From Lachnospiraceae bacterium (GTDB taxonomy: Bacteria; Bacillota; Clostridia; Lachnospirales; Lachnospiraceae), in NCBI GenBank assembly GCA_017437065.1, contig JAFSBX010000131.1, positions 1 through 64,000 on the forward strand: a stretch of DNA of 64,000 nt, read 5' to 3'. Below the pieces are notes generated by a model. It was given only the letters and a program-made list of their open reading frames with translations, made no database searches and was not told where the DNA came from. This document shows, in pieces, positions 2,156 to 32,982 of this stretch (the stretch's first letter is position 1; every line of letters starts with the position of its first letter). Both the position numbers and the translations under genes were made by a program.

Positions 2156-3157
2156 TTAAATGAATAATTGATATATAATCATACCAATCCAGAATATAGA
2201 AAATAAAATCATTCCAACATTCAAAATTACTGCAGAGAAACTCTGTCCTTTCGGAAGTTCGATTTCACCTTTGCTGCAGGTAAATTTTTTGCGGTTTACA
2301 ATGAGCAGAACAGCACCGGCAATAACTATAACAAGTAAAAATAATGCATAAACAACGTAAATTGCGATACCTGTTATATTAGAGGACATAATCTGCATTA
2401 TTTCTTCCGGAGAAGAAGCCTTTTCCAGTGTGGCAGCAATATCCAGATATCCGCTTTTTTCAATAATTGTCTGGCCAAGCGTGGATCCCATAAAGTTTAT
2501 TCCCATATGTATTAAGATTACATGAAGTACATTTCTTGTTTTGGCATAAATAAACGCCAGGAAACATCCTAAAGTAAAAGCATATACAAATTGATTTAAG
2601 TTTCCGTGGAATAATCCAAACATAAAACCGGAAAGTAAAATAGCAACTTTTTCTCCATATTTAGAGGCACGGTCAACCAGAAGTTTACGGAATACAATTT
2701 CTTCTGCAATCGGAGCACAAATGACCATAATAAAGAAAGCAGTTACGGGACTAATCAAGGAAGTAATGTTTACAATGGTATTTTGCACAGGCGCATTTTT
2801 GATTAATCCGATAATATAGGTAATGATTAATCCTACAATGTTACTTAAATAAATGCAGGCATAGCACATAAGGAATGTAATAATCCAGTGTCCTACAGAC
2901 ATTTTTTTCTTTTCTGTAACAGGGGCTGCGGGAACTTGTTTTACCAATAAAATTAAAACAGGTATTCCGATAATATACAAAGGCAGCATTAATGATAGAA
3001 AGTAAGCATCATATCCTATAATAAGGTTTGGGAATATAAGGTTAATAAGCTGTGGGATAAATCTCTGTACTGCGAAAATAACAATACAGCCTAATAGGAA
3101 CATAAGTCCAAGCTTTGAAAAATATTTTTTTGTGTCTTTTTTTAATTCGTTTTCCAT
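2156..3157 (-). CDS. CPBP family intramembrane metalloprotease
   Basis: 333-aa membrane protein with about eight hydrophobic segments. It carries the CPBP (CAAX protease and bacteriocin-processing) motifs in order: EEIVFRK (EExxxR), then MFGLFHG (FxxxH), then HMGINFMG (HxxxN), which bind zinc within the membrane. Relatives handle prenylated proteins, anti-sigma factors or bacteriocin immunity; this one's substrate is unknown. The start follows GGAGG. The gene lies next to a bacteriocin-like RiPP island but reads away from it and has neighbour-like base composition, so an immunity role is only a possibility. Two palindromes upstream suggest regulated expression. Confidence 0.85.
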   Translation of the reverse strand: MENELKKDTKKYFSKLGLMFLLGCIVIFAVQRFIPQLINLIFPNLIIGYDAYFLSLMLPLYIIGIPVLILLVKQVPAAPVTEKKKMSVGHWIITFLMCYACIYLSNIVGLIITYIIGLIKNAPVQNTIVNITSLISPVTAFFIMVICAPIAEEIVFRKLLVDRASKYGEKVAILLSGFMFGLFHGNLNQFVYAFTLGCFLAFIYAKTRNVLHVILIHMGINFMGSTLGQTIIEKSGYLDIAATLEKASSPEEIMQIMSSNITGIAIYVVYALFLLVIVIAGAVLLIVNRKKFTCSKGEIELPKGQSFSAVILNVGMILFSIFWIGMIIYQLFI

Positions 3158-3236
3158 AAAATCCTCCGTTTTTAAGTCCTCTTTTACACATGATAAATAT
3201 TGCTCTTATATAATGAGTTGACTTAGAGTGTTTCGA

Positions 3237-3274
3237 CTCGATATATCGAGCAAAAACATGTCGATACTCGACAT
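3237..3274. promoter_or_regulatory. Two palindromic operator candidates upstream of the CPBP gene
   Basis: CTCGATATATCGAG (3237-3250) is a perfect 14-bp palindrome, and ATGTCGATACTCGACAT (3258-3274) is a perfect palindrome with a 3-nt centre. Both contain TCGA cores, suggesting the same dimeric repressor. The spacing ATGT-N9-ACAT is near the PadR-type ATGT-N8-ACAT pattern, but the regulator is not identified. They lie 80-117 nt upstream of the CPBP start, in a 335-nt gap (3158-3492) that otherwise holds only AT-rich sequence and the leader of the RiPP operon. Confidence 0.6.
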
Positions 3275-3455
3275 AACTTATAGAGACATAATAAATTAGA
3301 TGATAGAAGTTGTCAATAGAAAAATCAGTTTAATTATAAAAATAATAAAAATAAATATTAAAAAAGGAAAATAATTATATTAATTTCTCCAAAAAAAAAG
3401 AATGTAGAATTTTTGATGCTATATTTTTATTGTAATTATGTGATTACATAAGCTA

Positions 3456-3728
3456 TTAAAAACGGGGAAGAAAGAAAAGGAGATATAGCATTATGAAGAA
3501 ACTATTTACTAATCCAGAAGTAATAACTTCACAACAGGTAAATGAAATTGAATTTTCAATAAGTGAAATGGATGCCCCTTCTTTAGTAGGAGGTGGTATT
3601 CCTGCAACTGCAATTATAGCATGTAATAAGCCATTTGGGGCTGCAACAATTGTAACTGTTGGTGGCGCAATTTCATCAATAGGTAGCTAAACGTATTAAT
3701 TAAAAAAATAATGTTTCCCCGTTTTTAA
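3456..3728 (+). repeat. 14-bp perfect inverted repeat bracketing the RiPP precursor gene
   Basis: The left arm TTAAAAACGGGGAA (3456-3469) lies just before the precursor's Shine-Dalgarno site. The right arm TTCCCCGTTTTTAA (3715-3728) lies between the precursor stop and the radical SAM gene. The arms are exact reverse complements, so in the mRNA the whole precursor cistron would form the loop of a long-range stem. The right arm ends in a T-rich tract. Confidence 0.7.
3493..3690 (+). CDS. RiPP precursor peptide with Gly-Gly leader
   Basis: 65-aa peptide preceded by AAAGGAGATATAGCATT. The charged leader (KKLFTNPEV..., residues 1 to about 35) ends in a triple glycine (SLVGGG), the usual cut site of C39 proteases, one of which is encoded downstream. 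The predicted core starts IPATAIIACNKPFGAATI and continues TVGGAISSIGS: hydrophobic, rich in Ala, Ile, Val, Gly, Ser and Thr, with one Cys and no acidic residue. It is the first gene of an operon with two radical SAM enzymes and a PqqD-like protein. A single Cys excludes multi-thioether sactipeptides. Function inferred as a secreted modified peptide (bacteriocin or signal). Confidence 0.85.
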   Translation: MKKLFTNPEVITSQQVNEIEFSISEMDAPSLVGGGIPATAIIACNKPFGAATIVTVGGAISSIGS

Positions 3729-3761
3729 GGCATAGAGTAATGTATGTTTTGGGAGGAATTT

Positions 3762-5195
3762 ATGAACGCAACTGACAAAATTATTTATAACAATAAATTT
3801 AAAACTATTGATTTAAAAGAGAAAGGATATGTAATCATCGATCCGGAAAGCCATATATGGTTAAAAACGTCAGAAACAGGAAAAGATATTCTTGAACGTT
3901 TGAAAGTAGAATGTACATATCAAGAGCTTTTAGAGTATATAAAAGAAATCTATGAGGTTAATGGAAAGGAAATTGAAGAAATTTTGGATGCAACAATTTG
4001 TGATTTCTATGAATATGGTGTTGTAGCTGTGAATGGAGAAATAAGAAATAAAGTTGCTTCATATTATAGAAATGAAGACAGTAATTTACAACAAGTATGG
4101 TTAAATATAACAAATAGATGTAATTTGAGATGCCCCCAATGTTTTGCAGAAACCAGAAATAAGAAACATAATGAGTTATCGTATGGTTATATTCAAAAAT
4201 TTTTTGAAGAAACAAAAGAACTTGAGCTTCATGAAATTATTATTTCTGGTGGTGAACCATGTTTGCATTCAGAATTTCTTAGAATTCTGCAATTAATTAA
4301 ATCAAAAGGAATACGAATTAAAATATTAACTAATGGAAGTATTAGTGATATGGATTCTGAAAAAGTAGATGTAATTTTTAAATTAGTAGATAATATTCAA
4401 GTGTCGTTAGATGGTGTAACAGAGACAACACATGACAAGTTTAGAGGTCAAGGGAGTTTTAGTAAAGTTTTAAAATGTTTGGAAAAGCTAAAAGGTTTTA
4501 AAGGGAACAAAGGAATTGCATATACACCGTTACCAGAAAATATATGTGAGATTGAATCGTTATATGATTTTGCATTAGCATATGAGCTTGATTATATACA
4601 TTTAAATAGACCATCAAGGCCTTCGCAGAGTGATATTTATAGTGATTCTGAATATTTTTTATCAGAAGTTTTTTTTGAGGATATTCTTCAGCAAGTCAAT
4701 TTACTGAGGAGAAAGGAAGCACAAAAACGTGATACTTACCGATCAATGCAAGTAAAACTTCCCACTATAAATGCAACATTTATACCATATAACAATTTAA
4801 TAGATAATGTAAAAAAAGTAAGATGTGCAGCAGGAATTACTACAATTTCAATCATGGAAGATGGCTCTGTTTACCCATGTGTTTCATTATCAACAAATAG
4901 AAAGAGAGATTTTCTGTGTGGAAATATCAAAGAGCAGAATAGTTTAGAGATAATAAAAAGCACAAGGAATAAGATGTTAGAAATGTTTCATGTAGAAAGA
5001 AATAAAAAGTGTAAGAAGTGTAGTTATAAATATTTTTGTGGTGGTGGTTGTCGCGCTGAAGTTGATTTGGTAGGTTGTGATCGAATGTGTAATATATTTA
5101 AGGAGCGTTATAAAGAGTTTTTTGAGCATTTATCATTAAGTAAAGTAAGAGCATTATACAGTTATAGAAAGGAGAAAATTGAGAGTGATACATGA
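3762..5195 (+). CDS. Radical SAM/SPASM RiPP maturase with N-terminal PqqD-like domain
   Basis: 477-aa enzyme. Residues 1 to about 95 look like a PqqD-like RiPP recognition element. The radical SAM CxxxCxxC motif is C120-N-L-R-C-P-Q-C (RCNLRCPQC), followed by a Gly-rich ISGGEPCLH segment. The C-terminal SPASM domain (about residues 360-460) is Cys-rich and includes KKCKKCSYKYFCGGGCRAE, which should bind auxiliary 4Fe-4S clusters. Family members make carbon-centred crosslinks or Cys-to-alpha-carbon thioethers on peptides bound by the recognition element. ATG 3762 sits behind GGGAGG; a longer in-frame ATG at 3744 lies on top of that site. Third element of the RiPP operon after the precursor. Confidence 0.9.
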   Translation: MNATDKIIYNNKFKTIDLKEKGYVIIDPESHIWLKTSETGKDILERLKVECTYQELLEYIKEIYEVNGKEIEEILDATICDFYEYGVVAVNGEIRNKVASYYRNEDSNLQQVWLNITNRCNLRCPQCFAETRNKKHNELSYGYIQKFFEETKELELHEIIISGGEPCLHSEFLRILQLIKSKGIRIKILTNGSISDMDSEKVDVIFKLVDNIQVSLDGVTETTHDKFRGQGSFSKVLKCLEKLKGFKGNKGIAYTPLPENICEIESLYDFALAYELDYIHLNRPSRPSQSDIYSDSEYFLSEVFFEDILQQVNLLRRKEAQKRDTYRSMQVKLPTINATFIPYNNLIDNVKKVRCAAGITTISIMEDGSVYPCVSLSTNRKRDFLCGNIKEQNSLEIIKSTRNKMLEMFHVERNKKCKKCSYKYFCGGGCRAEVDLVGCDRMCNIFKERYKEFFEHLSLSKVRALYSYRKEKIESDT

Positions 5196-5460
5196 TGAAG
5201 AGTGTTTGGGCGTAATGGTATATATGGAAAGCCCGACTGAAAAAGGAATGAAACTTATAACAGCATATAATGAAATATTTGTAAATAATTTTGTGTGTGA
5301 AATTATAGAAAAGATAAAAGAATACGCACCTATACCATTTAGTAAATTGTTAGAGGAAATATATGCGGAGCATCCGCAAAAAAATAAAGATGAAATTTGT
5401 GAAATAATAGAGCACTTGCTTAAACATGAAATTATTGAAACTATGGACGATGTGTGGTAA
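5185..5460 (+). CDS. PqqD-like RiPP recognition protein
   Basis: Small acidic protein (about 91 aa) with the PqqD-like fold pattern: an N-terminal beta-rich half then a two-helix half ending in DEICEIIEHLLKHEIIETM. Free-standing PqqD-like proteins hold the leader peptide and present it to a maturase. There is no ATG in frame. GTG 5185 lies 10 nt after GGAG and TTG 5179 only 4 nt after it, so GTG is preferred. It overlaps the end of the SPASM gene by 11 nt, suggesting translational coupling. Because the SPASM enzyme already carries such a domain, this copy may serve the B12 enzyme that follows. Confidence 0.75.
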   Translation: MIHDEECLGVMVYMESPTEKGMKLITAYNEIFVNNFVCEIIEKIKEYAPIPFSKLLEEIYAEHPQKNKDEICEIIEHLLKHEIIETMDDVW

Positions 5461-5471
5461 GGAGAAAATTT

Positions 5472-6884
5472 ATGAAAGAAGTACTTTTTATTCAGGCATG
5501 TAAACAAGGTAATATAACAGATAAGTATAAAAGTCAGTATCCATATCCGCCGCTTGGATTAATCTCATTATCAAATATGCTAAAAATACATGGAATTAAT
5601 GTAACAATTCGTGATTTGTTTTTAGAGAACATTAGTAAAAGTGAATTCTTAAATTCATTAAAAGAAATATCACATCCCTTATTAATTGGAATTTCAAGTT
5701 ATACTGATTCAATTGAGGTTGCATGTAGTATAGCAAAAGAATGTAAAAAAATATTTCCAAATACCAAAATACTTTTGGGAGGAACGCATGTTACGTTCAT
5801 GTATAAAGACGTGATGGAACAATGCAAAGAAATTGATTTTTGCTGCATTGGAGAAGGAGAGGGGATGATTGTTGAGTTAGTGGAATGCTTATTACATAAT
5901 TCACTTTCATTAAGAGACATTAAAAGTTTGGTTTATAGAGATGATTTGAGTAATGAAATTGTTGCAAATAAAAAGAGGGAATATTTAACTAATCTGGATA
6001 TCTTACCATTTTCGGAGTTTTCAGATTTTATGATAAAGGCTATGCAAAAACATAATAATATAGTTATTGTTAGTAGTAGAGGTTGTCCTGGAGGTTGTAT
6101 CTTCTGTGCATCCAGAGGAATGTCAGGACCAAAATATAGATGTTATTCTGCGGAATATTTGATAAGTTATCTTTTTTACTATCATAAAGTATATAACTTT
6201 CAAACCTATAGCTTTTTGGATGATACATTTACAGCTAATAAACAACGTTTACGTAAATTTGCAGAGTATATTCATAAACTAGAATTTTATTTACGTTTTA
6301 CTTGTAAAAGTCGTGCAGATGTAGTTAATCAAGAAATGGCAGAGCTGTTGGAAAAAATTTGTTGTGTATCAATTCATATCGGTGTAGAAAGTGCTGAAAA
6401 TGCAATATTAAAAGCAATAAATAAGAGAATTGTTTTAGATGATGTGTTTAAGGCAATTAAAATATTAGCAATACATAATATCAGGATAGAATGTACATTT
6501 ATTCTCGGACATCCACAGGATACAGTTGAAACGATGGAAAAAACGCTGATTATGGCTAAAAAATTAAATAATACAGACTTCTCGTTGGCGGTAATAGGAA
6601 TATGTACCCCTTTTCCTGGAACCGATTTATGGAATAGACGTGAAGAATACAGAATGAAGTTTTTAACAAATCGATGGGCAAGGTATGATTTGAGTACACC
6701 AATTTTTGAAACAAGAAATATATCAGCCGAAGATTTAAAAAAAGGGGCATTTTATTTTAATAATGCTTTATTTGATGGAGATAGTTTGCCAGGACTGTCT
6801 AGTAATAAATATGAAGAGTTTAGAGAACAAATTGATACATTAATTAATGAGATTGAGGTGGCAATTGGCAAGCAAACTAAATAG
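5472..6884 (+). CDS. B12-binding-domain radical SAM enzyme
   Basis: 470-aa protein. Residues 1 to about 150 form a Rossmann-like cobalamin-binding domain (YPPLGLISLSNMLK, then LLGGTHVTF and CCIGEGEG). The radical SAM domain has RGCPGGCIFC (CxxxCxxC, near residue 201) and an HIGVESA segment. Family members (BchE/P-methyltransferase type) methylate unactivated carbons or do other radical chemistry; in RiPP clusters they often C-methylate the core. No SPASM domain. ATG 5472 follows AAGGAG just after the previous stop. An operon pairing a SPASM maturase and a B12 enzyme around a single-Cys precursor is unusual. Confidence 0.9.
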   Translation: MKEVLFIQACKQGNITDKYKSQYPYPPLGLISLSNMLKIHGINVTIRDLFLENISKSEFLNSLKEISHPLLIGISSYTDSIEVACSIAKECKKIFPNTKILLGGTHVTFMYKDVMEQCKEIDFCCIGEGEGMIVELVECLLHNSLSLRDIKSLVYRDDLSNEIVANKKREYLTNLDILPFSEFSDFMIKAMQKHNNIVIVSSRGCPGGCIFCASRGMSGPKYRCYSAEYLISYLFYYHKVYNFQTYSFLDDTFTANKQRLRKFAEYIHKLEFYLRFTCKSRADVVNQEMAELLEKICCVSIHIGVESAENAILKAINKRIVLDDVFKAIKILAIHNIRIECTFILGHPQDTVETMEKTLIMAKKLNNTDFSLAVIGICTPFPGTDLWNRREEYRMKFLTNRWARYDLSTPIFETRNISAEDLKKGAFYFNNALFDGDSLPGLSSNKYEEFREQIDTLINEIEVAIGKQTK

Positions 6885-6901
6885 AAAAGGAGCGTAATAA
6901 C

Positions 6902-7096
6902 ATGAATTCATTAAATACAGGAAAAAGAGTAGTGTTAAGAACTAAAAATAATTTATCTTTTGCAGGAAGGATGAATGAGAATATTCATTTAAAAGAAAAA
7001 GAATATGTACATCTTACAACTTGTGAAGAGTCAGGATTTGGAGTGATATGTCCAGTAGAATTTGTTGAAGAAATCATAATTGTAGGTTTGGAGTAA
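6902..7096 (+). CDS. Unrecognised 64-aa protein of the RiPP operon
   Basis: Good ribosome site (AAAAGGAGCG) and tight placement between the B12 radical SAM gene and the protease gene support it as real. The protein alternates short hydrophobic beta-like strands (KRVVLRTK, EYVHLTT, GVICPVEFVEEIIIVG) with charged turns and has two Cys. It lacks a signal peptide, a Gly-Gly motif and membrane segments. It looks like a small beta-barrel; an accessory binding protein or immunity factor are guesses. It does not resemble the precursor at 3493. Confidence 0.7.
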   Translation: MNSLNTGKRVVLRTKNNLSFAGRMNENIHLKEKEYVHLTTCEESGFGVICPVEFVEEIIIVGLE

Positions 7097-7100
7097 AATT

Positions 7101-7733
7101 ATGTTTAAATATGTGTATATAGGGATACTGGCATGGGTTTTTATTCCATTACTTTGTTTCTTTTTGCTACCAGGTATTGGAGCACTTTTCAAAAGTACCA
7201 GAATAAAATTATTTGTAAGAAAAATTATGAGAAGTTGTTTGGGATTGTCACAGGTTCAAACAGGTTATGATGATATATTATATCAATTTGGTAAATTAGA
7301 ATGTGGTGAGATTGCATTGAAAAATGCAATGAGAATGTTAGGAAAAAAAGATGTCTGTAATTTTACTTTGCCAGAAAACAGCTCTATGAAGGATATTTAT
7401 GATGTTGCCGTTAAACATGGCTTTAGTGTAAAAGGAATAAAAGAAACGACACTGCAAAATGTAGATGCGAAAATTAAGGAATCCAATATGAAGGTGTTGA
7501 CTTTGCTTAGAGTGCATTATCCTTTTAATGGATTTTGGGTATATCCAACAAGATTTTTTATGAAATTAATGACATCAAAAGTAGATGCTTTGCATTGGGT
7601 GATTATTGAAAAGGTGACGGACAAATATGTGGAAATAATGGATCCTTACTTTGGATGTATAAGAATATCACATAAAAAATTTGAGGATGTTTGGAATCAC
7701 ATAGTTTTTACTATAAGTGAAGGAAGCAGGTGA
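7101..7733 (+). CDS. Membrane-anchored C39-like leader peptidase
   Basis: 210 aa. Residues 4-30 form a membrane anchor (IGILAWVFIPLLCFFLLPGI). The rest has the layout of a C39 double-glycine peptidase: Gln six residues before Cys in QFGKLECGEIALKNAM, a catalytic His in ALHWVIIEKV, and Asp-Pro in VEIMDPYFG. Most C39 domains are fused to an ABC exporter; here the domain stands alone with its own anchor, and the exporter is encoded next. It should remove the leader of the 65-aa precursor after SLVGGG. The start follows TTGGAG. Confidence 0.8.
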   Translation: MFKYVYIGILAWVFIPLLCFFLLPGIGALFKSTRIKLFVRKIMRSCLGLSQVQTGYDDILYQFGKLECGEIALKNAMRMLGKKDVCNFTLPENSSMKDIYDVAVKHGFSVKGIKETTLQNVDAKIKESNMKVLTLLRVHYPFNGFWVYPTRFFMKLMTSKVDALHWVIIEKVTDKYVEIMDPYFGCIRISHKKFEDVWNHIVFTISEGSR

Positions 7734-7740
7734 TTTATAG

Positions 7741-8469
7741 ATGGTGTATTTAGAAACTTATAAGTTATCGAAAGTTTATAAAAAGAGCAATACTAGAGTG
7801 GAAGGAATAGAGGATGTATCTATGCTTTTTGAGGGCGGTAATATATGTACACTTCTTGGTCCTAATGGATCAGGAAAAACGACACTTATAAAAACATTAT
7901 GTTCTGAAATACAACCGGATAGCGGAGATATTAAGTACATGGGACATTCTATTTTTAAGAATAAGAAAGAAATTCAGCATATAAAAAGGAAAGTTGGATA
8001 TGCTCCGGAAAATCCTTTTTTGTACAGTCGATTAAAAGGAAAAGAGTTTTTGGAGTTTATGGCTTGTATGTATGAGGTTGACTTAAAAAAAGAAAAAGAA
8101 GAACTTAACTATTTGATAAAAGGATTTGAAATGGATAAGCATATGGACAAATTAATTACGGATTATTCTCAAGGAATGGTAAGAAAACTTTCGTTAATAA
8201 TGGCTTTATTGTTTGGTAAAAAAGTTATTATTATGGATGAACCCACTAATGGACTTGATCCAACCAGTTATCTGTTTCTTTTAGAGATTTTAAAACAGTA
8301 TCGCCAAGAAAAGCGGTGTGTATTGCTTTCAACGCATCAGCTTGATATGGCTGAAGAACTTACAGATCATCTTATTTTAGTTTTAGATGGACATATAGTA
8401 TATGATGGAAAACTAACCGAAAAAAAGAATTTAAGAGAACTTTATATGGAAAACATAAGTTTAGCATAA
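7741..8469 (+). CDS. ABC transporter ATP-binding protein (RiPP export or immunity)
   Basis: 242 aa with Walker A GPNGSGKTT (near residue 41), signature motif SQGMVRK, Walker B VIIMDEPTNGLDP and an H-loop STHQ. It belongs to the ABC-2-type exporter/immunity class and pairs with the membrane protein that follows 21 nt downstream. Position behind the protease suggests that it exports the matured peptide or protects the producer from it. Confidence 0.9.
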   Translation: MVYLETYKLSKVYKKSNTRVEGIEDVSMLFEGGNICTLLGPNGSGKTTLIKTLCSEIQPDSGDIKYMGHSIFKNKKEIQHIKRKVGYAPENPFLYSRLKGKEFLEFMACMYEVDLKKEKEELNYLIKGFEMDKHMDKLITDYSQGMVRKLSLIMALLFGKKVIIMDEPTNGLDPTSYLFLLEILKQYRQEKRCVLLSTHQLDMAEELTDHLILVLDGHIVYDGKLTEKKNLRELYMENISLA

Positions 8470-8490
8470 TAAGAATGAAAGGGTAAAAAT

Positions 8491-9888
8491 ATGTATGGAA
8501 TATTAAAAGAAATGTATAGGATAAAGATAATAAGATTTCTTAGAGTAGCAGGAATTCCATATAAATGTAAAGCTAATTTTAAAAGAATACTTAAAGCAGT
8601 AATATTGATGTTATTTGTTATAGGTATTGAGATATATGTATTTATTAATGAACCAATATATGCAAAAAAAAATTTATTGTTAATGATTGATACAAATCTA
8701 CATCTTATTTTTCTCTTTATGGTACTTTGTGGAATTTTTGTGTCGATAAATTGGATGCGGTATGACGAATATGATGAGATACAATTTTTATTATCATTAC
8801 CATTATATAAGGAACAAATTTATAAATATAAAGTATATTCATTGTTAATAGAGTGGGTTGCCTTTATTACATTAATTATGTTACCTTTTTGTATTGATTT
8901 ATATGCAGTTATTCGAATAGGAGCCTATATTGTAATATCGATAGGTGGTTTGTTATTTGGAATTGGAATAGGTGCTAAAGTGCTGTGCTTATTTCAACAG
9001 AGTTTTAAGGTCATATTTGTATGTATTCTGTTTGTATTGATGATTTTAGTGTGTGGATTTAAGTATACTAGATATAGCTGGCGGATAGAGAATGATTTTA
9101 TTTTATATTTGTTAGGAATATTTAGTATAGGAATAGCCTTTAATATAGTTGTACGCAATTTTTATGGTTTATATTCGGATTTATTATATAGAAAGAAAAG
9201 AATTGGGGGAGAAAAAGCAACAAGTATAAGTGGTATAGTTAAAAATAAAGTTCTTGCATTTGTTATTAAAGATTATATTTCCTTTAGCAGGAATAAAAGA
9301 GATTTGTTGAAAACAATGATTCTTTTAGGATGTTTCTTAATAAGTATTAGATTAACTGGTTTTGAGGTCAAAATTGCATATCAATATTTGTTACCATATA
9401 TAGGGTGTAATATATGGATTCTTGATTTGGCAGGTCAGGAAACATATTTTTACCAAATTAACAAGTTGTTAAAAAATGGTTCTAGTTGTGATTATTATTT
9501 AAAAAGGCTTTTATCCGGTTTTGTTGTGGTGCTTCCGATAAGTGTAATATGCGGTAGTGTAATAGAGTTTTTTGAAAAAGGATACATTTCTTTTTTTGAG
9601 CAGATATATGTAATTAGTATAAGTATATTAATGATTTTTTTGAGTGTGGGTATTTCTATCTTATGCAAAAGAGAATCTATAAGTAAATATAATGCTTCTT
9701 TTGGTGTAAATGTGGCTGGACAATTAATTTATTATACAGTTGGTGCTGCATATATGTTTTTGTTTGAAATGGTTTTGCGAGGAAGTAAAATAGCAACAAT
9801 ATTATTTTGTATAACAATGGGAATTAATATATATATTAATTTGTATGTGGTGATTAAGGGCAGATGCAAATACAGGAAAGTTAGATAA
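8491..9888 (+). CDS. ABC-2-like permease of the RiPP cluster
   Basis: 465-aa protein with roughly ten to twelve hydrophobic segments, no catalytic motif, and long Ile/Phe/Tyr-rich stretches. It is the last gene of the RiPP operon and sits beside the ATPase at 7741. I do not recognise a precise family beyond multi-span ABC-2-like permeases. Ribosome site AAAGGGTAAAAAT. Very AT-rich codon use, like the rest of the island. Confidence 0.75.
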   Translation: MYGILKEMYRIKIIRFLRVAGIPYKCKANFKRILKAVILMLFVIGIEIYVFINEPIYAKKNLLLMIDTNLHLIFLFMVLCGIFVSINWMRYDEYDEIQFLLSLPLYKEQIYKYKVYSLLIEWVAFITLIMLPFCIDLYAVIRIGAYIVISIGGLLFGIGIGAKVLCLFQQSFKVIFVCILFVLMILVCGFKYTRYSWRIENDFILYLLGIFSIGIAFNIVVRNFYGLYSDLLYRKKRIGGEKATSISGIVKNKVLAFVIKDYISFSRNKRDLLKTMILLGCFLISIRLTGFEVKIAYQYLLPYIGCNIWILDLAGQETYFYQINKLLKNGSSCDYYLKRLLSGFVVVLPISVICGSVIEFFEKGYISFFEQIYVISISILMIFLSVGISILCKRESISKYNASFGVNVAGQLIYYTVGAAYMFLFEMVLRGSKIATILFCITMGINIYINLYVVIKGRCKYRKVR

Positions 9889-9907
9889 GGATAGTTTAAG
9901 CTTTTGT

Positions 9908-9954
9908 TAACAGATTGCATATTACTGGAAAAATATATTTCTTAATGATATAAT
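9908..9954 (+). promoter_or_regulatory. Promoter region of the agr module
   Basis: A TATAAT -10 box lies at 9949-9954, 42 nt before the regulator start. The -35 position (around 9926) holds TGGAAA, a poor match, so activator dependence is likely. The 9-mer TAACAGATT at 9908-9916 recurs at 12046-12054, upstream of agrD. Whether it is a binding site for the LytTR regulator encoded here is an inference. Confidence 0.5.
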
Positions 9955-9995
9955 TTCAAATAAACATTGTGGATAAATAGTACGGAGCGTAATAA

Positions 9996-10712
9996 ATGAG
10001 AATCGCAATTTGTGATGATGAAAAAACAGTATGTGCAGAACTGGAAAATATGTTAACAGAAATTAGTGGTGAAATTAAATGTCTACTGGATATTGATGTT
10101 TTTTATACAGGAGAGGAACTGGAGACTTTTCTTTTAGATGGAAAAGAATATGAAGTTATTTTTTTAGATATAGAACTCAAGACTAAAACAGGGATGGAAA
10201 TTGGTGCTACTATACGTGATAGGATGAAAAATGAGAGCATTTTTATAGTTTATATTTCAAGTAAATCTACATATGCATTGTCCCTATTTAAGACACGTCC
10301 TTTAGATTTTTTGGTGAAACCGCTTAATAGGCAGGACATAGAAGGAATTATATTAAAAGTTAACGAATTGATAAATAGAAATAATACTTTTTTTGAATTC
10401 AAAATCAGACAAAAAACATATAGACAAAAAATAAAAGATATACTTTATTTTGAAAGCCTTGACAAAAAAGTATATATGGTAACAATAGAAGGAAAAATTG
10501 AATTTTACGGTAAATTATCTGAAATTCAAAAACAAATTAATAGTTTTCAATTTATAACAATACATAAATCGTATTTAATAAATTATCAGTATGTAAAAAG
10601 TTTTGAATATGATAAGGTAATAATGCTGAATAATATTACACTTCCAATTAGTCAGAATAATAGAAACAGCGTCCGACGACAACAAATAGCATTAAGAAAG
10701 GTTTATAGATGA
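9996..10712 (+). CDS. agrA: AgrA-type LytTR response regulator
   Basis: 238 aa. The receiver domain has the acidic pocket ICDDE and the phosphoacceptor Asp58 in VIFLDIE; the C-terminal half (about residues 135-238) is a LytTR DNA-binding domain with FITIHKSYLIN. Such regulators bind pairs of ~9-bp direct repeats two helical turns apart. It is the first gene of an A-C-D-B quorum-sensing module and overlaps the kinase gene by 4 nt (ATGA). Likely targets are its own module and the adjacent RiPP operon. Ribosome site GGAGCG. Confidence 0.9.
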   Translation: MRIAICDDEKTVCAELENMLTEISGEIKCLLDIDVFYTGEELETFLLDGKEYEVIFLDIELKTKTGMEIGATIRDRMKNESIFIVYISSKSTYALSLFKTRPLDFLVKPLNRQDIEGIILKVNELINRNNTFFEFKIRQKTYRQKIKDILYFESLDKKVYMVTIEGKIEFYGKLSEIQKQINSFQFITIHKSYLINYQYVKSFEYDKVIMLNNITLPISQNNRNSVRRQQIALRKVYR

Positions 10713-11995
10713 GTTACAGTGATTTATATAGTACAATTTATTTATTATTAAATATCTTGGGAACATATATCATATATCGTTTTATGAATATCTTTTTTAG
10801 TAATGTTAGAAAACGTGAAGTTGAGATGATTTCATATGTATTTTATTATTGTGTTATTGCATATTTCCATTTATATGTTAACAAAGCATTCATAAATTTA
10901 ATATGTAATGTTGTGTTATTTTTCTTAATAACATGGAATTATAGGAGTACATTCAAGAAAAAGATATTAGTATCACTACTAATTTATTCAATATTATTAG
11001 TGGTTGAAAGTTTTATTGTAATTATTATTTCGATATTGCATCTAGAAAGTGATGATTCTACGCGAATTATTGGATTGGTTGCAATAAAAATTGTATCCTT
11101 AATCTTTGTTCTAATGTTGAATAATGTTAAATATGTTAAGCTTGATATGAAAATTTCGGTGCATATATGGGTTTTGATATTGTTGTTTCCACTGGGCTCA
11201 TTAATTCTATTTGGTATTATTATTGTTGAGCCGACAAAAAATACTATATTATTATCCTTGGGCATTTTACTGGCATTTAATCTACTCATTTTTCATATAT
11301 ATGAGATTATAAATAAGGAGTATTTTGCAGAAATTCAATACAAGGAAAAAAAGAGAGAAGCAGATTTGTTGTATCAAAAAAGCATATTTTATGAAAAGCA
11401 ATTGAATATTTTAAATAGCTTTCAAGAAAAAATACGGATGATAAAACATAATTATGATAACGATGTTTTAGTGTTGGAAAGTCTTATAAAAAATAATGAG
11501 ATGGAAGAAGTAAAAAGATATATCAGTGGGATGATTGTTCACTATGAAGATTATGGAATGTATTCTAATACTGATAATATTGCCATTGACAGTTTGGTGA
11601 ATTACAAATTACAAGTAGCAGAAAAAATGGGAACTGAATTATATATTAATATAAAAGTTCCAGATGTACTTAAAATAGAGAAAAATGATTTGAGTATTAT
11701 TTTAGGATGTTTATTGGACAATGCTATTGAGGCGTTGGAAAAAACAAACGACAGAAGGTTAAGTATTAGTATTCAATATGACAGAAGTATACTTTATATT
11801 AATATAGTGAATAGTTATTCAGGTTGTATAGTAATAGAAAATGGTATTTATCAAACCTCAAAAGAAGATAAGGAAAGTCATGGTCTGGGTTTGATGAGTG
11901 TTCAAAGGGTAATTAATAAGTATCATGGAGAAATGATAATAAACGATGTAGAGGGAGTATTTTCAGTTGATTTGATGATTTATGATAGTTTATGA
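10709..11995 (+). CDS. agrC: AgrC-type sensor histidine kinase (GHKL)
   Basis: 428 aa. About six membrane segments fill residues 1-200, the usual peptide-sensing domain of AgrC proteins. The cytoplasmic half has the phosphorylated-His motif in MIKHNYDND, an N box in GCLLDNAIEALE and a G box HGLGLMSVQRVI, but not the classical HisKA set, as is normal for this family. It should sense the peptide made from agrD and signal to the regulator encoded immediately upstream. Confidence 0.9.
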   Translation: MSYSDLYSTIYLLLNILGTYIIYRFMNIFFSNVRKREVEMISYVFYYCVIAYFHLYVNKAFINLICNVVLFFLITWNYRSTFKKKILVSLLIYSILLVVESFIVIIISILHLESDDSTRIIGLVAIKIVSLIFVLMLNNVKYVKLDMKISVHIWVLILLFPLGSLILFGIIIVEPTKNTILLSLGILLAFNLLIFHIYEIINKEYFAEIQYKEKKREADLLYQKSIFYEKQLNILNSFQEKIRMIKHNYDNDVLVLESLIKNNEMEEVKRYISGMIVHYEDYGMYSNTDNIAIDSLVNYKLQVAEKMGTELYINIKVPDVLKIEKNDLSIILGCLLDNAIEALEKTNDRRLSISIQYDRSILYINIVNSYSGCIVIENGIYQTSKEDKESHGLGLMSVQRVINKYHGEMIINDVEGVFSVDLMIYDSL

Positions 11996-12040
11996 TAGAA
12001 GTGTAAATTTCGGCAAAAAAAAGTATATATTTGGGCATTT

Positions 12041-12085
12041 TAGTATAACAGATTCTGAATTGTAGTATAATTAAAATGCTATAAT
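12041..12085 (+). promoter_or_regulatory. agrDB promoter with 22-bp-spaced direct repeats
   Basis: TAGTATAA occurs at 12041-12048 and again at 12063-12070, exactly 22 bp apart, the spacing bound by LytTR-family regulators. TATAAT boxes lie at 12066-12071 and 12080-12085. TAACAGATT (12046-12054) is shared with the region upstream of agrA. In such AT-rich DNA a chance repeat is possible, so the regulatory reading is tentative. Confidence 0.45.
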
Positions 12086-12128
12086 CTATTTTGAAGAGGC
12101 ACATATTAAAATCAAAGGAGGAATTTGT

Positions 12129-12281
12129 ATGCGTAGGAAAATAGTGTTGAAATTAGCTAATCTTTTAGGGGTGGTGGCAATAGCAATAACATCTTACAGT
12201 GTTAATCAGACTTGTATGTTTTGGGCATATCAACCAGAGTTACCTAAGGGAGCAGATAAATTAAAGAATGAAAATATATGA
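12129..12281 (+). CDS. agrD: AgrD-like cyclic lactone autoinducer precursor
   Basis: 50-aa peptide with a strong AAAGGAGG ribosome site. Residues 1-26 form an amphipathic leader (MRRKIVLKLANLLGVVAIAI). The autoinducer region is VNQTCMFWA and the C-terminal recognition tail is YQPELPKGADKL. The tail resembles the clostridial pattern of Cys plus four residues followed by a QPE-P segment, so a five-residue Cys-Met-Phe-Trp-Ala thiolactone ring is predicted. The gene overlaps agrB by 14 nt. The N-terminal end of the mature signal cannot be fixed from sequence. Confidence 0.9.
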   Translation: MRRKIVLKLANLLGVVAIAITSYSVNQTCMFWAYQPELPKGADKLKNENI

Positions 12282-12837
12282 TACAATAGTAGATTTTATG
12301 ATGCAAAATGAAATTGTATCGCAAGAAGATGCAGAGTTATATAAATTTGGCATAGAACAAGGTGTCATATTTTTAATAAATATTATAACAATGCTACTAA
12401 TAGGTATAGGTATGAACAATTTTTTCTCATGTATAGTAATGTCTTTTACATACATGAACATAAGAAGATACGCAGGAGGATATCATGCTAAGGATATTAA
12501 AGTATGTTTTGTGCTTTCTTCTTTATTAATAATACTAGGTTTATTTTACGTAAAACTATTAAGTTACTGGGTTGGTTTCAAGGTAGTCACAATTCTTTTT
12601 TCTACTGTTATGATTATGGGGTTAGCTCCATATCAAAATACTAATAATCCATTAGATCAAGCTCAGATAATTAGGTATAAGAGTAAAACCAGGAAGAGAT
12701 TCTGTTCTGCACTTATAATTGCATTAATTTTAGAGTTCATAGGTATGAATAACATGAGTGCAACAGTAGTAACGGCTTTATTTCTTATAAGCGTGATGTT
12801 AGCTGTTGGAGCTATAATAGAAAAAGTATGCGTATAA
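12268..12837 (+). CDS. agrB: AgrB-type autoinducer-processing membrane protease
   Basis: 189 aa with four to six membrane segments. The catalytic motif RRYAGGYHA is followed by Cys seven residues after the His (HAKDIKVC), the spacing of His77 and Cys84 in staphylococcal AgrB. AgrB cuts the C-terminal tail of AgrD and closes the thiolactone. ATG 12268 lies inside the end of agrD, so the two are translationally coupled. It ends the AT-rich island; a terminator follows at 12889. Confidence 0.92.
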   Translation: MKIYDTIVDFMMQNEIVSQEDAELYKFGIEQGVIFLINIITMLLIGIGMNNFFSCIVMSFTYMNIRRYAGGYHAKDIKVCFVLSSLLIILGLFYVKLLSYWVGFKVVTILFSTVMIMGLAPYQNTNNPLDQAQIIRYKSKTRKRFCSALIIALILEFIGMNNMSATVVTALFLISVMLAVGAIIEKVCV

Positions 12838-12888
12838 TTATACTGAATTATTACTTGTTTTTGCAAAAAAAGTATGCTAAAGTGGAAA

Positions 12889-12927
12889 TCACCCTCATTT
12901 CACATGTGAAGTGAGAGGTGTTTTTTT
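12889..12927 (+). terminator. Intrinsic terminator after agrB
   Basis: The arms CACC-CTCAtTTCAC and GTGAAgTGAGAGGTG form a long GC-containing hairpin with a 7-T tail at 12921-12927. It ends the agr transcript and marks the right edge of the AT-rich island. Confidence 0.88.
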
Positions 12928-12957
12928 AACTTAATACTTACCTGCGGTCTTCTTTAA

Positions 12958-12982
12958 AAAGGTCATTCGGAAACTGACCTTT
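12958..12982. other. Short hairpin in the leader of the ABC operon
   Basis: AAAGGTCA (12958-12965) and TGACCTTT (12975-12982) form a perfect 8-bp stem with a 9-nt loop. No T tract follows, so it is either an mRNA leader structure or a dyad operator for the ABC-2 genes starting at 13065. Confidence 0.5.
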
Positions 12983-13064
12983 ACTTAAGAAAGCAGAACC
13001 GACTTGGCAAGATATTAGAGTATCAGAGGATTCTCAAAAATATTACTACCAGGAGGAAGCTAAC

Positions 13065-13853
13065 ATGATTGAAATGTCACATGTAAGCAAGACTTACAAA
13101 GTCTCTAAACGTGATGCAGGGGCAGTCTCTGCATTGAAGAGTATATTCCATAGGGAATATGAACAGGTACATGCGTTGAAAGACGTATCTTTTACCATTC
13201 AGGATGGAGAAATGGTGGGCTACATTGGTCCAAACGGAGCCGGAAAAAGCTCAACGATTAAAATCCTTAGTGGTATTCTGACACCGGATGAAGGAAACTG
13301 TCTGATTAATGGGCGGAATCCTTGGAAAGACCGTATCCGGCATGTAAAAGAAATTGGAGTTGTGTTCGGGCAGCGAAGCCAGTTGTGGTGGGATGTGCCG
13401 GTAGCAGATTCCTATGAACTTCTAAAAGATATTTATCGTATTCCAAAAGCAGTTTATGAACAGAATAAGGACGAGCTGACAGAACTTTTGAATTTGGGTG
13501 AGCTGTTGAAAACACCGGCTAGACAGTTGTCGTTGGGACAGCGTATGCGTTGTGAAATTGCAGCCTCTCTTTTACATAGTCCGAAGATTTTATTTCTGGA
13601 TGAGCCGACCATAGGGCTGGATGCAGTTTCTAAGCTGGCTGTTCGTGAATTTATCTTGAAACATAATAAGAATCATAAAACGACAGTAATTCTGACTACT
13701 CATGATATGCAGGATATCGAAGCATTGACAGAGCGAATTATCCTGATTGGTAAAGGGCAGATTTTATTGGATGGTACAATTGAAGATATTAAAGCCGGTA
13801 ATGATAATATGGACGAGGCTTTAGCCACACTTTATCGAAAATTCGAGATTTAG
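13065..13853 (+). CDS. ABC-2 exporter ATP-binding protein
   Basis: 262 aa with Walker A GPNGAGKSS (near residue 53), signature LSLGQRMRCE, Walker B ILFLDEPTIGLD and an H-loop TTHD. The insertion around GQRSQLWWDVPV is typical of the NodI-like ATPases that partner DUF990-type ABC-2 membrane proteins, two of which follow. The exported substrate is unknown. Ribosome site CAGGAGGAAG. Base composition returns to the chromosomal norm here. Confidence 0.9.
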   Translation: MIEMSHVSKTYKVSKRDAGAVSALKSIFHREYEQVHALKDVSFTIQDGEMVGYIGPNGAGKSSTIKILSGILTPDEGNCLINGRNPWKDRIRHVKEIGVVFGQRSQLWWDVPVADSYELLKDIYRIPKAVYEQNKDELTELLNLGELLKTPARQLSLGQRMRCEIAASLLHSPKILFLDEPTIGLDAVSKLAVREFILKHNKNHKTTVILTTHDMQDIEALTERIILIGKGQILLDGTIEDIKAGNDNMDEALATLYRKFEI

Positions 13854-13871
13854 AAAGGGGTGTGGTCAGAT

Positions 13872-14675
13872 ATGAAAAAGTACATTTCTTTTTTCAGGCT
13901 TCGGTTTTCCATGGGACTGCAATACAGGACGGCAGCATTTGCGGGAATTGCCACGCAGTTTATATGGGGATTTATGGAAATATTGATGTTTAAGTCGTTT
14001 TATGAAGCAGAGCCGTCGGCATTTCCAATGACATTACAGGCAACCTGTTCCTATGTGTGGATGCAGCAGGCGTTTTTGACTCTTTTTATGGCATGGGTTT
14101 TGGAGAATGAGATTTTTGATTCTATTGTAAACGGAAATATTTCCTATGAGCTGTGCAGACCTGTAAACGTTTATGATATGTGGTTTGCCAGAAGTACCGC
14201 AAACCGATTTTCAAAGGTGGTTTTAAGGTGCTTTCCGGTTTTGCTTTTCAGTGTATTTTTGCCGGCTCCTTACGGAATGATGGCACCGGTTAGTGGCAGT
14301 GCGTTTGTGTGGTTTCTGATTACACTTATTTTAGGGGCATTTGTAACGATAGCTTTTTGTATGTTAATTTATATGACTTGTTTCTTTACGGTATCTGCGG
14401 TGGGAGTAAGGATGGTTGCAGTGTCTGTTGTGGAGTTTTTTCAAGGTGGGGTAATTCCGATTCCGTTCTTCCCTGAAAATATTCAAAAAATTATGGAGCT
14501 GTTGCCTTTTGCGGCAATGCAGAATGTGGCATTTCGTATTTATAATGGTGACCTTGCGGGGGCTGAGATGAAAAGGGCAGTTGTTTTGCAGGTATTTTGG
14601 CTGGTCGTGTTGGTTACCGTGGGGAAAGCTATGAATCGAATTGCCATGAAAAAGATAGTAGTGCAGGGTGGTTAG
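13872..14675 (+). CDS. ABC-2 permease (ABC2_membrane_6 type), subunit 1
   Basis: 267-aa protein with six predicted membrane segments, beginning MKKYISFFRLRFSMGLQYR. Its N terminus and the conserved VNGNISYELCRPVNVYDMWFA stretch match the DUF990 subunits that act as a heterodimer with a second permease. The frame opens with GTG 13860, but that codon abuts the AAAGGGG site; ATG 13872 is better spaced. The end overlaps an out-of-frame upstream extension of the next gene. Confidence 0.82.
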   Translation: MKKYISFFRLRFSMGLQYRTAAFAGIATQFIWGFMEILMFKSFYEAEPSAFPMTLQATCSYVWMQQAFLTLFMAWVLENEIFDSIVNGNISYELCRPVNVYDMWFARSTANRFSKVVLRCFPVLLFSVFLPAPYGMMAPVSGSAFVWFLITLILGAFVTIAFCMLIYMTCFFTVSAVGVRMVAVSVVEFFQGGVIPIPFFPENIQKIMELLPFAAMQNVAFRIYNGDLAGAEMKRAVVLQVFWLVVLVTVGKAMNRIAMKKIVVQGG

Positions 14676-14701
14676 TACAGGAAAGGAGCGTTTGGGAAGC
14701 T

Positions 14702-15487
14702 ATGATAGACAGTTTGCGGTTATATGCGCATTATTTTAAGATACAGTTTCGGAGTGCAATGGAATATAAGTCATCTTTTATTTTGACTTGTATCGGGCAG
14801 TTTTTGGTGTCTTTTAACGTATTTTTGGGAGTCTTTTTTATGTTTCGGAGATTCCATAGCGTAAATGGGTATACTTACAGTGAGGTCATGCTCTGTTTTG
14901 GAATTACGTTGATGGAATTTTCATTGGCGGAGGCAGTAGCGCGTGGATTTGACATGTTTCCGTCCATGATTTCAAATGGAGTATTTGACCGTATCATGGT
15001 GCGTCCGCGGAATGAAATTTTTCAGGTACTTGGGCAGAAAATTGAGTTTACCAGAGTTGGAAGAATTTTGCAGGCGATTGTGATGTTTTCTTATGGAATT
15101 ATGAAAAGTGAAGTGGATTGGAGCTTTGCTAAAGTGGTGACGGTAATTTTTATGCTGCTTGGCGGAATGGCGTTGTTTTGTGGGATTTTTCTGATATATG
15201 CATCAATTTGCTTTTTTACGTTGGACGGACTGGAAGTTATGAATATACTGACGGACGGGGCAAGAGAATATGGAAAATATCCGGTGGACATTTACGGAAA
15301 AAAAGTGTTGCTTTTATGTACCTTTTTTGTACCGTATGCGTTGGTGCAGTATTATCCGTTACTTTTTCTATTGGAGAAAGGAGCATGGTGGTATGCGCTT
15401 TTACCGGCAGGGGGATTTCTGTTTTTGATTCCGTGTTATGGATTTTGGCGGTTTGGGGTACATCATTATAAGTCGGTGGGGTCGTAA
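14702..15487 (+). CDS. ABC-2 permease (ABC2_membrane_6 type), subunit 2
   Basis: 261-aa membrane protein with about six spans. It shares the layout of the preceding subunit, including a cytoplasmic stretch ISNGVFDRIMVRPRNEIFQVLG equivalent to the first permease's Arg-Pro motif, and a PVDIYGKKVLLL segment. The two permeases and the ATPase form a three-gene exporter. The long frame from 14597 overlaps subunit 1; ATG 14702 is chosen because AAAGGAGCG and GGGAAG lie just upstream. Confidence 0.82.
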   Translation: MIDSLRLYAHYFKIQFRSAMEYKSSFILTCIGQFLVSFNVFLGVFFMFRRFHSVNGYTYSEVMLCFGITLMEFSLAEAVARGFDMFPSMISNGVFDRIMVRPRNEIFQVLGQKIEFTRVGRILQAIVMFSYGIMKSEVDWSFAKVVTVIFMLLGGMALFCGIFLIYASICFFTLDGLEVMNILTDGAREYGKYPVDIYGKKVLLLCTFFVPYALVQYYPLLFLLEKGAWWYALLPAGGFLFLIPCYGFWRFGVHHYKSVGS

Positions 15488-15658
15488 ATAAAAAATTAAG
15501 AAAATATACACAAGCAGATAAGAATTAAATGTTAAACTAGTATACGGACATGTTGATAATTTGATAAATTTCTTGCCTTTTCAAATATTAATGTGTCAAT
15601 ACATTAGCAGTAGAATTGTGTAATTGTGAAAAAAGTAGAAGGGGAAGTCAGAGAATAT

Positions 15659-32965: not shown

Positions 32966-32982
32966 TTAAAGGAGGAAAAATG

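Follow-up and report, generated by a model that had tools for sequence, protein, structure and literature searches.

The gene block and its features

The DNA analysed here, called the window, is a stretch of 64,000 nucleotides from a Lachnospiraceae bacterium (assembly GCA_017437065.1, contig JAFSBX010000131.1, positions 1-64,000, forward strand). Between 3493 and 12837 on its + strand, we confirmed twelve genes that associate a putative cluster for a ribosomally synthesised and post-translationally modified peptide (RiPP), including two radical S-adenosylmethionine (SAM) enzymes, with an agr quorum-sensing module. An earlier note on this DNA had described such a same-strand block, and all its genes are indeed present where it had placed them. 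Most of the gene identities that it gave also agree with the domains called by Pfam and NCBIfam, judged against the cut-offs of the models; the part that does not hold is the name of a free PqqD-like protein, which has no PqqD match in Pfam. The features are listed below, where RRE stands for RiPP recognition element, and L and G numbers designate loci and genomes used for comparison.

3493..3690, +, precursor peptide with a Gly-Gly leader and one core Cys (45% identical to the L058 precursor, 13381-13623)
3762..5195, +, RRE-radical SAM-SPASM enzyme, SkfB/CteB-like (Pfam; NCBIfam StsB, 129 bits, below cut-off; profile match to SkfB 6efn)
5179..5460, +, stand-alone RRE-like (PqqD-like) protein with a TTG start (E 5.2e-7 with its L058 counterpart; RREs among its structural neighbours, E >0.1)
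5472..6884, +, B12-binding radical SAM enzyme (Pfam; 50% identical to L058; tree)
6902..7096, +, 64-aa protein, predicted Sm-like beta-barrel, candidate partner of the B12 enzyme
7101..7733, +, stand-alone C39 leader peptidase with a membrane anchor (Pfam; catalytic residues conserved)
7741..8469, +, ABC transporter ATPase (Pfam)
8491..9888, +, ABC transporter permease (homologues by phmmer in L058/L060 and L059 alone, of 57 other loci)
9996..10712, +, agrA-type response regulator, LytTR (Pfam)
10709..11995, +, agrC-type histidine kinase (Pfam HATPase_c_5)
12037..12070, +, direct repeat ATTTTAGTATAA / ATTGTAGTATAA, 22-bp period, LytTR-site-like, before agrD
12129..12281, +, agrD, signal precursor whose thiolactone ring is predicted as CMFWA, followed by YQPELP (TIGR04223)
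12268..12837, +, agrB processing protease (PF04647)
12894..12915, +, terminator-like hairpin closing the block, inside the conserved flank and outside the insert
3326..12848, no strand, inserted cassette, boundaries to about 20 bp (flank alignment with the same-genus G031; GC)

The SPASM enzyme, whose best start by Shine-Dalgarno placement is 3762, carries PqqD, Radical_SAM and SPASM domains, all above the Pfam cut-off, with the motifs CNLRCPQC and CX2CX5CX3C. Profile A1, which combines this enzyme with three relatives from genus g394, has a match to SkfB (6efn) at 1.4e-23 and a weaker one to the epimerase YydG; by these matches the family resembles the SkfB/CteB type. The B12 enzyme (best start by the same criterion, 5472) has Pfam B12-binding (8e-21) and Radical_SAM (1.8e-19) domains and a canonical CxxxCxxC motif, CPGGCIFC. 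For the free protein encoded between them, the only Pfam match is Lant_dehydr_N (E 0.056). Its AlphaFold2 model is moderate (pLDDT 68.5) and has McbB, ThcOx, TigE, PbtF and PqqD at ranks 1, 2, 7, 13 and 17 of its neighbours, amid other winged helices, none being significant (best E 0.13). The matched parts of these five proteins are presumably RREs, hence our designation of the protein as RRE-like, which rests on that moderate model. A similar protein is encoded directly before the B12 gene in L035, L036, L054 and L058, and a profile found it in L066 and L067. The C39 protease (Pfam, 7.3e-8) has a hydrophobic N-terminus, and its residues Q62, C68, H165 and D181 are conserved in the window and two homologues. 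No Pfam or NCBIfam family reaches its cut-off on the putative permease, which was assigned from its gene place and its homologues.

A conserved operon and the neighbour of its B12 enzyme

The seven genes from the SPASM enzyme to the permease (SPASM radical SAM, RRE-like, B12 radical SAM, 64-aa protein, C39 protease, ABC and permease) are found in the same order, behind a homologous precursor, in G1095, a UBA5509 metagenome-assembled genome (MAG) of another class (L058/L060). Since this order recurs in another class, it goes beyond chance. Identities between the window and L058 are 50% for the B12 enzyme, 48% for the Sm-like protein, 42% for the ABC protein, 35% for the SPASM enzyme, 34% for the C39 protease, 22% for the permease and 18% (E 5e-7) for the RRE-like protein. 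Judged from these comparisons, the cluster is a real, conserved RiPP operon. The earlier note had both radical enzymes act on the peptide: that these genes and the precursor belong together is borne out by the same operon, with its homologous precursor, in a distant genome, and the bonds or methyl groups that we infer are discussed below.

The precursor gene (65 aa) is preceded by a strong ribosome-binding site, aaaaggagat. Its product shares with the L058 precursor the leader EMD.P..VGG and the core IIxC...xGAATxVTVGxAI, including the single core Cys. The core from the window has no Tyr or Trp and one Phe, which is missing from the L058 core. No match to a nitrile-hydratase-like or Nif11 leader was found by Pfam or NCBIfam in this 65-aa peptide. 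The best-scoring NCBIfam models stay below their cut-offs for both the SPASM enzyme (best 25 of 84) and the B12 enzyme (best 25 of 31), in line with the earlier note, to which the class of RiPP was unfamiliar; no single named family among the Pfam and NCBIfam models shown appears to cover the operon as a whole. In PubMed Central (PMC) literature, outside which most subscription journals lie, no paper on the operon or on the Sm-like partner was recognisable by its title or the start of its abstract among the matches listed. Searched by term, neither PMC4289311 nor PMC4573289 showed B12, cobalamin, SPASM or agr.

Among 397 genomes of the family, with at most four candidates scored per genome, the SPASM enzyme matched in its own genome alone at E 1e-40. 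In the order sample, 79 of 392 genomes matched at E 1e-15, G561, G548 and G470 standing out at <=1e-45, and three genomes of one genus (one Vallitalea) have a full-length SPASM homologue adjoining a B12 enzyme and a 64-aa homologue. Viral contigs and the first scan of genome contigs gave no confirmed match, and plasmids only matches below 60% identity that lack 80% coverage.

The 64-aa protein, listed in the earlier note as a small unknown without its weight being noticed, is the most informative part of the cluster. It forms a family of its own, and Pfam has no match to the members from the window, L035 and L067. Its model (pLDDT 89.2) is an all-beta barrel with the five to six strands of the Sm/LSm small-barrel fold and has YaeO, Gemin6 and Hfq as fold neighbours; the protein is thus predicted to fold as an Sm/LSm-like barrel. 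These neighbours alone indicate no function.

The family was found in 16 genomes, and in 15 of them it is encoded at most 36 bp from a B12 radical SAM gene; a partner gene stands 2-36 bp from 16 B12 enzyme genes across 15 loci. Many of these loci were retrieved via the B12 enzyme, and the less biased figure comes from the six genes, in five other genomes, found via the partner profile itself (E <1e-7), five of which lie beside a B12 radical SAM gene. A second scan of genome contigs, queried with B12 enzymes, yielded 49 loci, nine of which hold the family by profile (L060, L061, L066, L067, L068, L069, L070, L074 and L085); two of the nine repeat genomes already in the set, and the L068 match, weak (E 0.015) but correctly placed, was counted. 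With its own genome included, the partner profile matched four of 391 genomes of the class sample at E <1e-7 (13 genomes in all, nine with E 0.0019-0.01 being outside the count) and three of 378 of the phylum sample at E 0.001. It had no confirmed match in viral contigs and none in plasmids, and a profile detected no partner in two plasmid B12 radical SAM neighbourhoods (Rhizobium, Azoarcus).

The partner goes with the B12 enzyme, since it occurs where no SPASM homologue was detected (L052, L053, L068, L069, L070 and L074). The pair accompanies SPASM enzymes in some clusters, a LanM-type synthetase in L052 and glycosyltransferases in L053 and L070; the partner is about twice as long in L068 and L070, and L069 and L074 have two partner genes in tandem. 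In a tree of 62 B12 enzymes (>150 bits, 380-560 residues; L060 and L085 omitted as repeats), 16 of 16 partnered enzymes fall in one group of 19 rows, within a group of 24 rows (support 98/95); support for the former is 97/79, slightly below the line of 80. Its three remaining rows are second copies in clusters already holding a partner, and the partner label changes four times on the tree for a shuffled mean of 14.3. Furthermore, the distances between partners are correlated with those between enzymes (Mantel r 0.71, n=16, reached by 0 of 2000 permutations, with an L053 partner gene used in two pairs; r 0.62, n=14, 1 of 2000, without L037 and L074), which is a sign of co-inheritance, not of contact, from permutations that ignore phylogeny.

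Two of the loci deserve a description. L052 (1913-11378) is a lanthipeptide-type cluster with a LanM-type synthetase (DUF4135, LANC_like), a C39 ABC transporter, a candidate precursor, a B12 radical SAM enzyme and the Sm-like partner; a 797-aa protein considered there as a second B12 enzyme was rejected for want of a Pfam match. The candidate precursor ends in CPTTKCTSQCNS, an ending that we take to be typical of two-peptide lantibiotic beta peptides. L061 (4416-9232), from an Acetobacteraceae MAG, carries a SPASM-enzyme homologue, two B12 radical SAM enzymes, an RRE-like gene and the Sm-like partner. If this genome is binned correctly, the 64-aa family extends past Bacillota.

Proposed maturation and the linked agr genes

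We propose, with a probability of about 0.5, that the cassette works as follows. Two RRE domains, the free one and that of the SPASM enzyme, would bind the precursor via its leader. The SPASM enzyme would introduce a single radical crosslink, the lone conserved Cys being its most likely origin, and the B12 enzyme, with the 64-aa Sm-like protein as dedicated subunit, would act on the aliphatic GAATIVTVGGAI stretch, C-methylation being the most likely change. Cleavage after Gly-Gly would fall to the anchored C39 protease and export or immunity to the ABC pair, and the linked agr genes would probably time expression by cell density in this copy.

In G031, a genome of the same genus, L119 631-1463 aligns with window positions 2484-3325 and L119 1510-4155 with 12849-15536; these two flanks are 46 bp apart there, with none of the twelve genes between them. 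The cassette of about 9.5 kb has a lower GC (28.5% for 3326-12846 versus 37.3% for the rest of the window). Because G031 keeps the flanks without these genes and the stretch is lower in GC, the RiPP and agr genes appear to share one block, inserted here or lost in G031; they may also result from two separate events at one site. The empty site was seen in one of two other genomes of the genus, the second (G349) being uninformative as it has no match to the left-flank gene. The genome is 99.98% complete with 5.58% contamination, and the conserved flanks tie the contig to the genus. No recombinase or target repeat was noticed at the insert, no search being aimed at either. A CPBP protease (2156-3157) was rejected as a cluster member, as it sits in the conserved flank; a CPBP protease is found inside an L035 cluster. 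The palindrome ATGTCGATACTCGACAT (3258-3274) is also a flank element, with one change in the G031 copy.

All four agr components are present, AgrA and AgrC by Pfam domains, AgrD by TIGR04223 and AgrB by PF04647 (6.6e-31), and the AgrD ring is predicted, from the arrangement of known AgrD sequences, as CMFWA before YQPELP. The two 12-base repeats, 22 bp apart, that precede agrD resemble a LytTR site, whose layout they share. Quorum control of the peptide, claimed in the earlier note, gains from the location of both gene sets in one insert, missing from one sister genome, and from agrA starting on the same strand 107 bp past the permease. In Clostridium acetobutylicum, LanM-like genes beside agr are under Agr control (PMC10301443). 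The claim loses from the lack of homologues of these agr genes in any of 57 other loci (0/57 at E 0.001, some loci being short) and from the best agrD-type repeat before the precursor, 17/24, which is the commonest value in 200 mononucleotide shuffles, although the site bound by this AgrA may be another. Moreover, the genome has 12 AgrC-like matches, including that of the cassette. From its linkage, control of the operon by its own agr is plausible; that agr sits as a passenger in a hot spot of insertions, with the peptide outside its control, is a serious possibility, which we hold to be somewhat improbable. Another contig of this genome (C33; L121 1883-5343) carries a second agr-like set recognised by eye (response regulator, kinase, AgrB-like and AgrD-like genes), with no RiPP genes seen by eye in the stretch read.

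Possible chemistry of the radical enzymes and known relatives

Besides the clade support and the nature of the Mantel result given above, several observations weigh against the proposed maturation. The full operon is known from two genomes only, and G1399 (L059, L120) has the partner, protease and transporter with no radical SAM gene found in about 30 kb. In L062, a SPASM-enzyme homologue (224 bits; Pfam Radical_SAM and PqqD, no SPASM domain) occurs with two Cys-free candidate precursors, and related enzymes therefore need not make thioethers; formation of one is uncertain here for the same reason, even if the single conserved Cys suggests one in the product. Conversely, clusters L053, L069 and L074 lack SPASM and have Cys in their precursors. 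A rule that SPASM accompanies Cys, checked by eye across candidates, was not clean, and L063 was dropped as a second Cys-free case, Pfam finding there a PqqD domain only. Lastly, among the NCBIfam models listed for the B12 enzyme (best 25 of 31), the top named ones, BchE (175 bits) and ApyD (148 bits), fall short of their cut-offs, and ApyD is a crosslinking enzyme.

These scores bear on whether the B12 enzyme would crosslink or oxidise, rather than methylate. BchE is a ring-forming enzyme and non-methylating B12 radical SAM enzymes are known (PMC13331322); the B12 radical SAM enzyme PbsB crosslinks tyrosines (PMC12026744). On the model TIGR03975, for RiPP radical SAM C-methyltransferases, the enzyme of the window scores 87.3 bits, below the cut-off of 281.85. 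It may do BchE-like or crosslinking chemistry, but an aromatic crosslink is unlikely because the core is devoid of Tyr and Trp and its one Phe is not in L058; we regard this alternative as possible and rather unlikely. Since PoyC methylates valine (PMC5682303), we infer that the aliphatic stretch is the substrate of the B12 enzyme.

Alternatively, as for polytheonamide, the SPASM enzyme would epimerise and the B12 enzyme would C-methylate an aliphatic stretch, giving a membrane-active helix. RiPPs with a radical SAM epimerase and a B12 methyltransferase are known (PMC8326336, PMC5682303), the Cys-free candidates of L062 fit them, and candidate precursors with a Gly/Ala/Val/Ile-rich stretch occur in 11 of 15 partnered loci (window, L035, L036, L037, L053, L058, L066, L067, L068, L069 and L074), a figure that is no test as the filter itself required such a stretch. 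Candidates of L052 and L054, chosen by eye, failed that filter, which yielded none in L061 and L070. However, PoyB and PoyC carry an unconventional Cx7Cx2C motif (PMC5682303), which the enzyme of the window lacks, YydG matches the SPASM profile less well than SkfB (in a comparison without PoyD), and one Cys is conserved across both cores; we consider this outcome unlikely. The Sm-like protein is still less likely to be an Hfq-like RNA-binding regulator instead of an enzyme subunit: its fold neighbours would allow it, but it tracks one enzyme clade over differing precursor types and hosts, is doubled or longer in some clusters, and had no LSm chain listed in a sequence search with E up to 1.

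The cluster is a variant of known radical SAM RiPP systems, and the new partner family is its most informative part. Like sactipeptide and ranthipeptide systems (SkfB, CteB, StsB), it has an RRE-radical SAM-SPASM enzyme with CX2CX5CX3C and a hydrophobic, bacteriocin-like core; unlike them, it has one core Cys, an extra B12 enzyme with its Sm-like partner, and a stand-alone C39 protease with a separate ABC transporter. With proteusins such as polytheonamide it has in common an aliphatic core and radical SAM enzymes of two kinds for it (PMC8326336, PMC5682303), whereas its leader is a short Gly-Gly one, not large and nitrile-hydratase-like, and its B12 enzyme is canonical (CxxxCxxC). The clavusporin-type pair of a B12 radical SAM enzyme and DUF5825, reported to C-methylate (PMC12257519), also associates such an enzyme with a dedicated second protein, which differs from the predicted 64-aa barrel without Pfam match found here. 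ApyD and PbsB belong to the same superfamily and occur in a RiPP context, but the ApyD model is below cut-off, the twelve genes include no MNIO, and Tyr is missing from the core. Finally, the agr set is complete as in other agr systems and differs in its order, A-C-D-B, and in its place inside a RiPP insert.

Tentatively, and with less confidence than in the maturation scheme, a new RiPP class might be defined by B12 radical SAM enzymes that need an Sm-fold subunit for aliphatic peptide tails, the pair being plugged into SPASM, LanM-type lanthipeptide and glycosyltransferase clusters and, here, into a private quorum-sensing cassette. If true, the Sm-like gene would offer a searchable marker of a group of radical-modified peptides, in Clostridia and perhaps outside them. 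A peptide-modifying enzyme served by an Sm-type barrel would also help to clarify what B12 radical SAM enzymes need on unactivated peptide carbons, and the window would provide a peptide on which to test control by a cell-density switch inherited with it.

Some related loci show further features. At L059, the partner, C39, ABC and permease genes (6934-11270) lie without radical SAM genes beside transposase-like fragments, recognised by eye, and this locus is apparently a decayed operon; a gene for a Gly-Gly leader peptide (13927-14145), whose Bacteriocin_IIc match is weak and below cut-off, is located close to a second C39-type transporter. L069 (8528-9055) and L074 (8790-9061) contain short candidate precursor genes in a row, the tails being of the kind GGAALVVAGVGLAVAVAT. 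Candidate precursors near B12 radical SAM enzymes in L062 (9164-9559), L071 (8410-8595) and L054 (11618-11755) end in IPGP(V/A)IPG or PLPGPT. Elsewhere in the window, positions 32980-39552 hold an open reading frame of 2190 aa.

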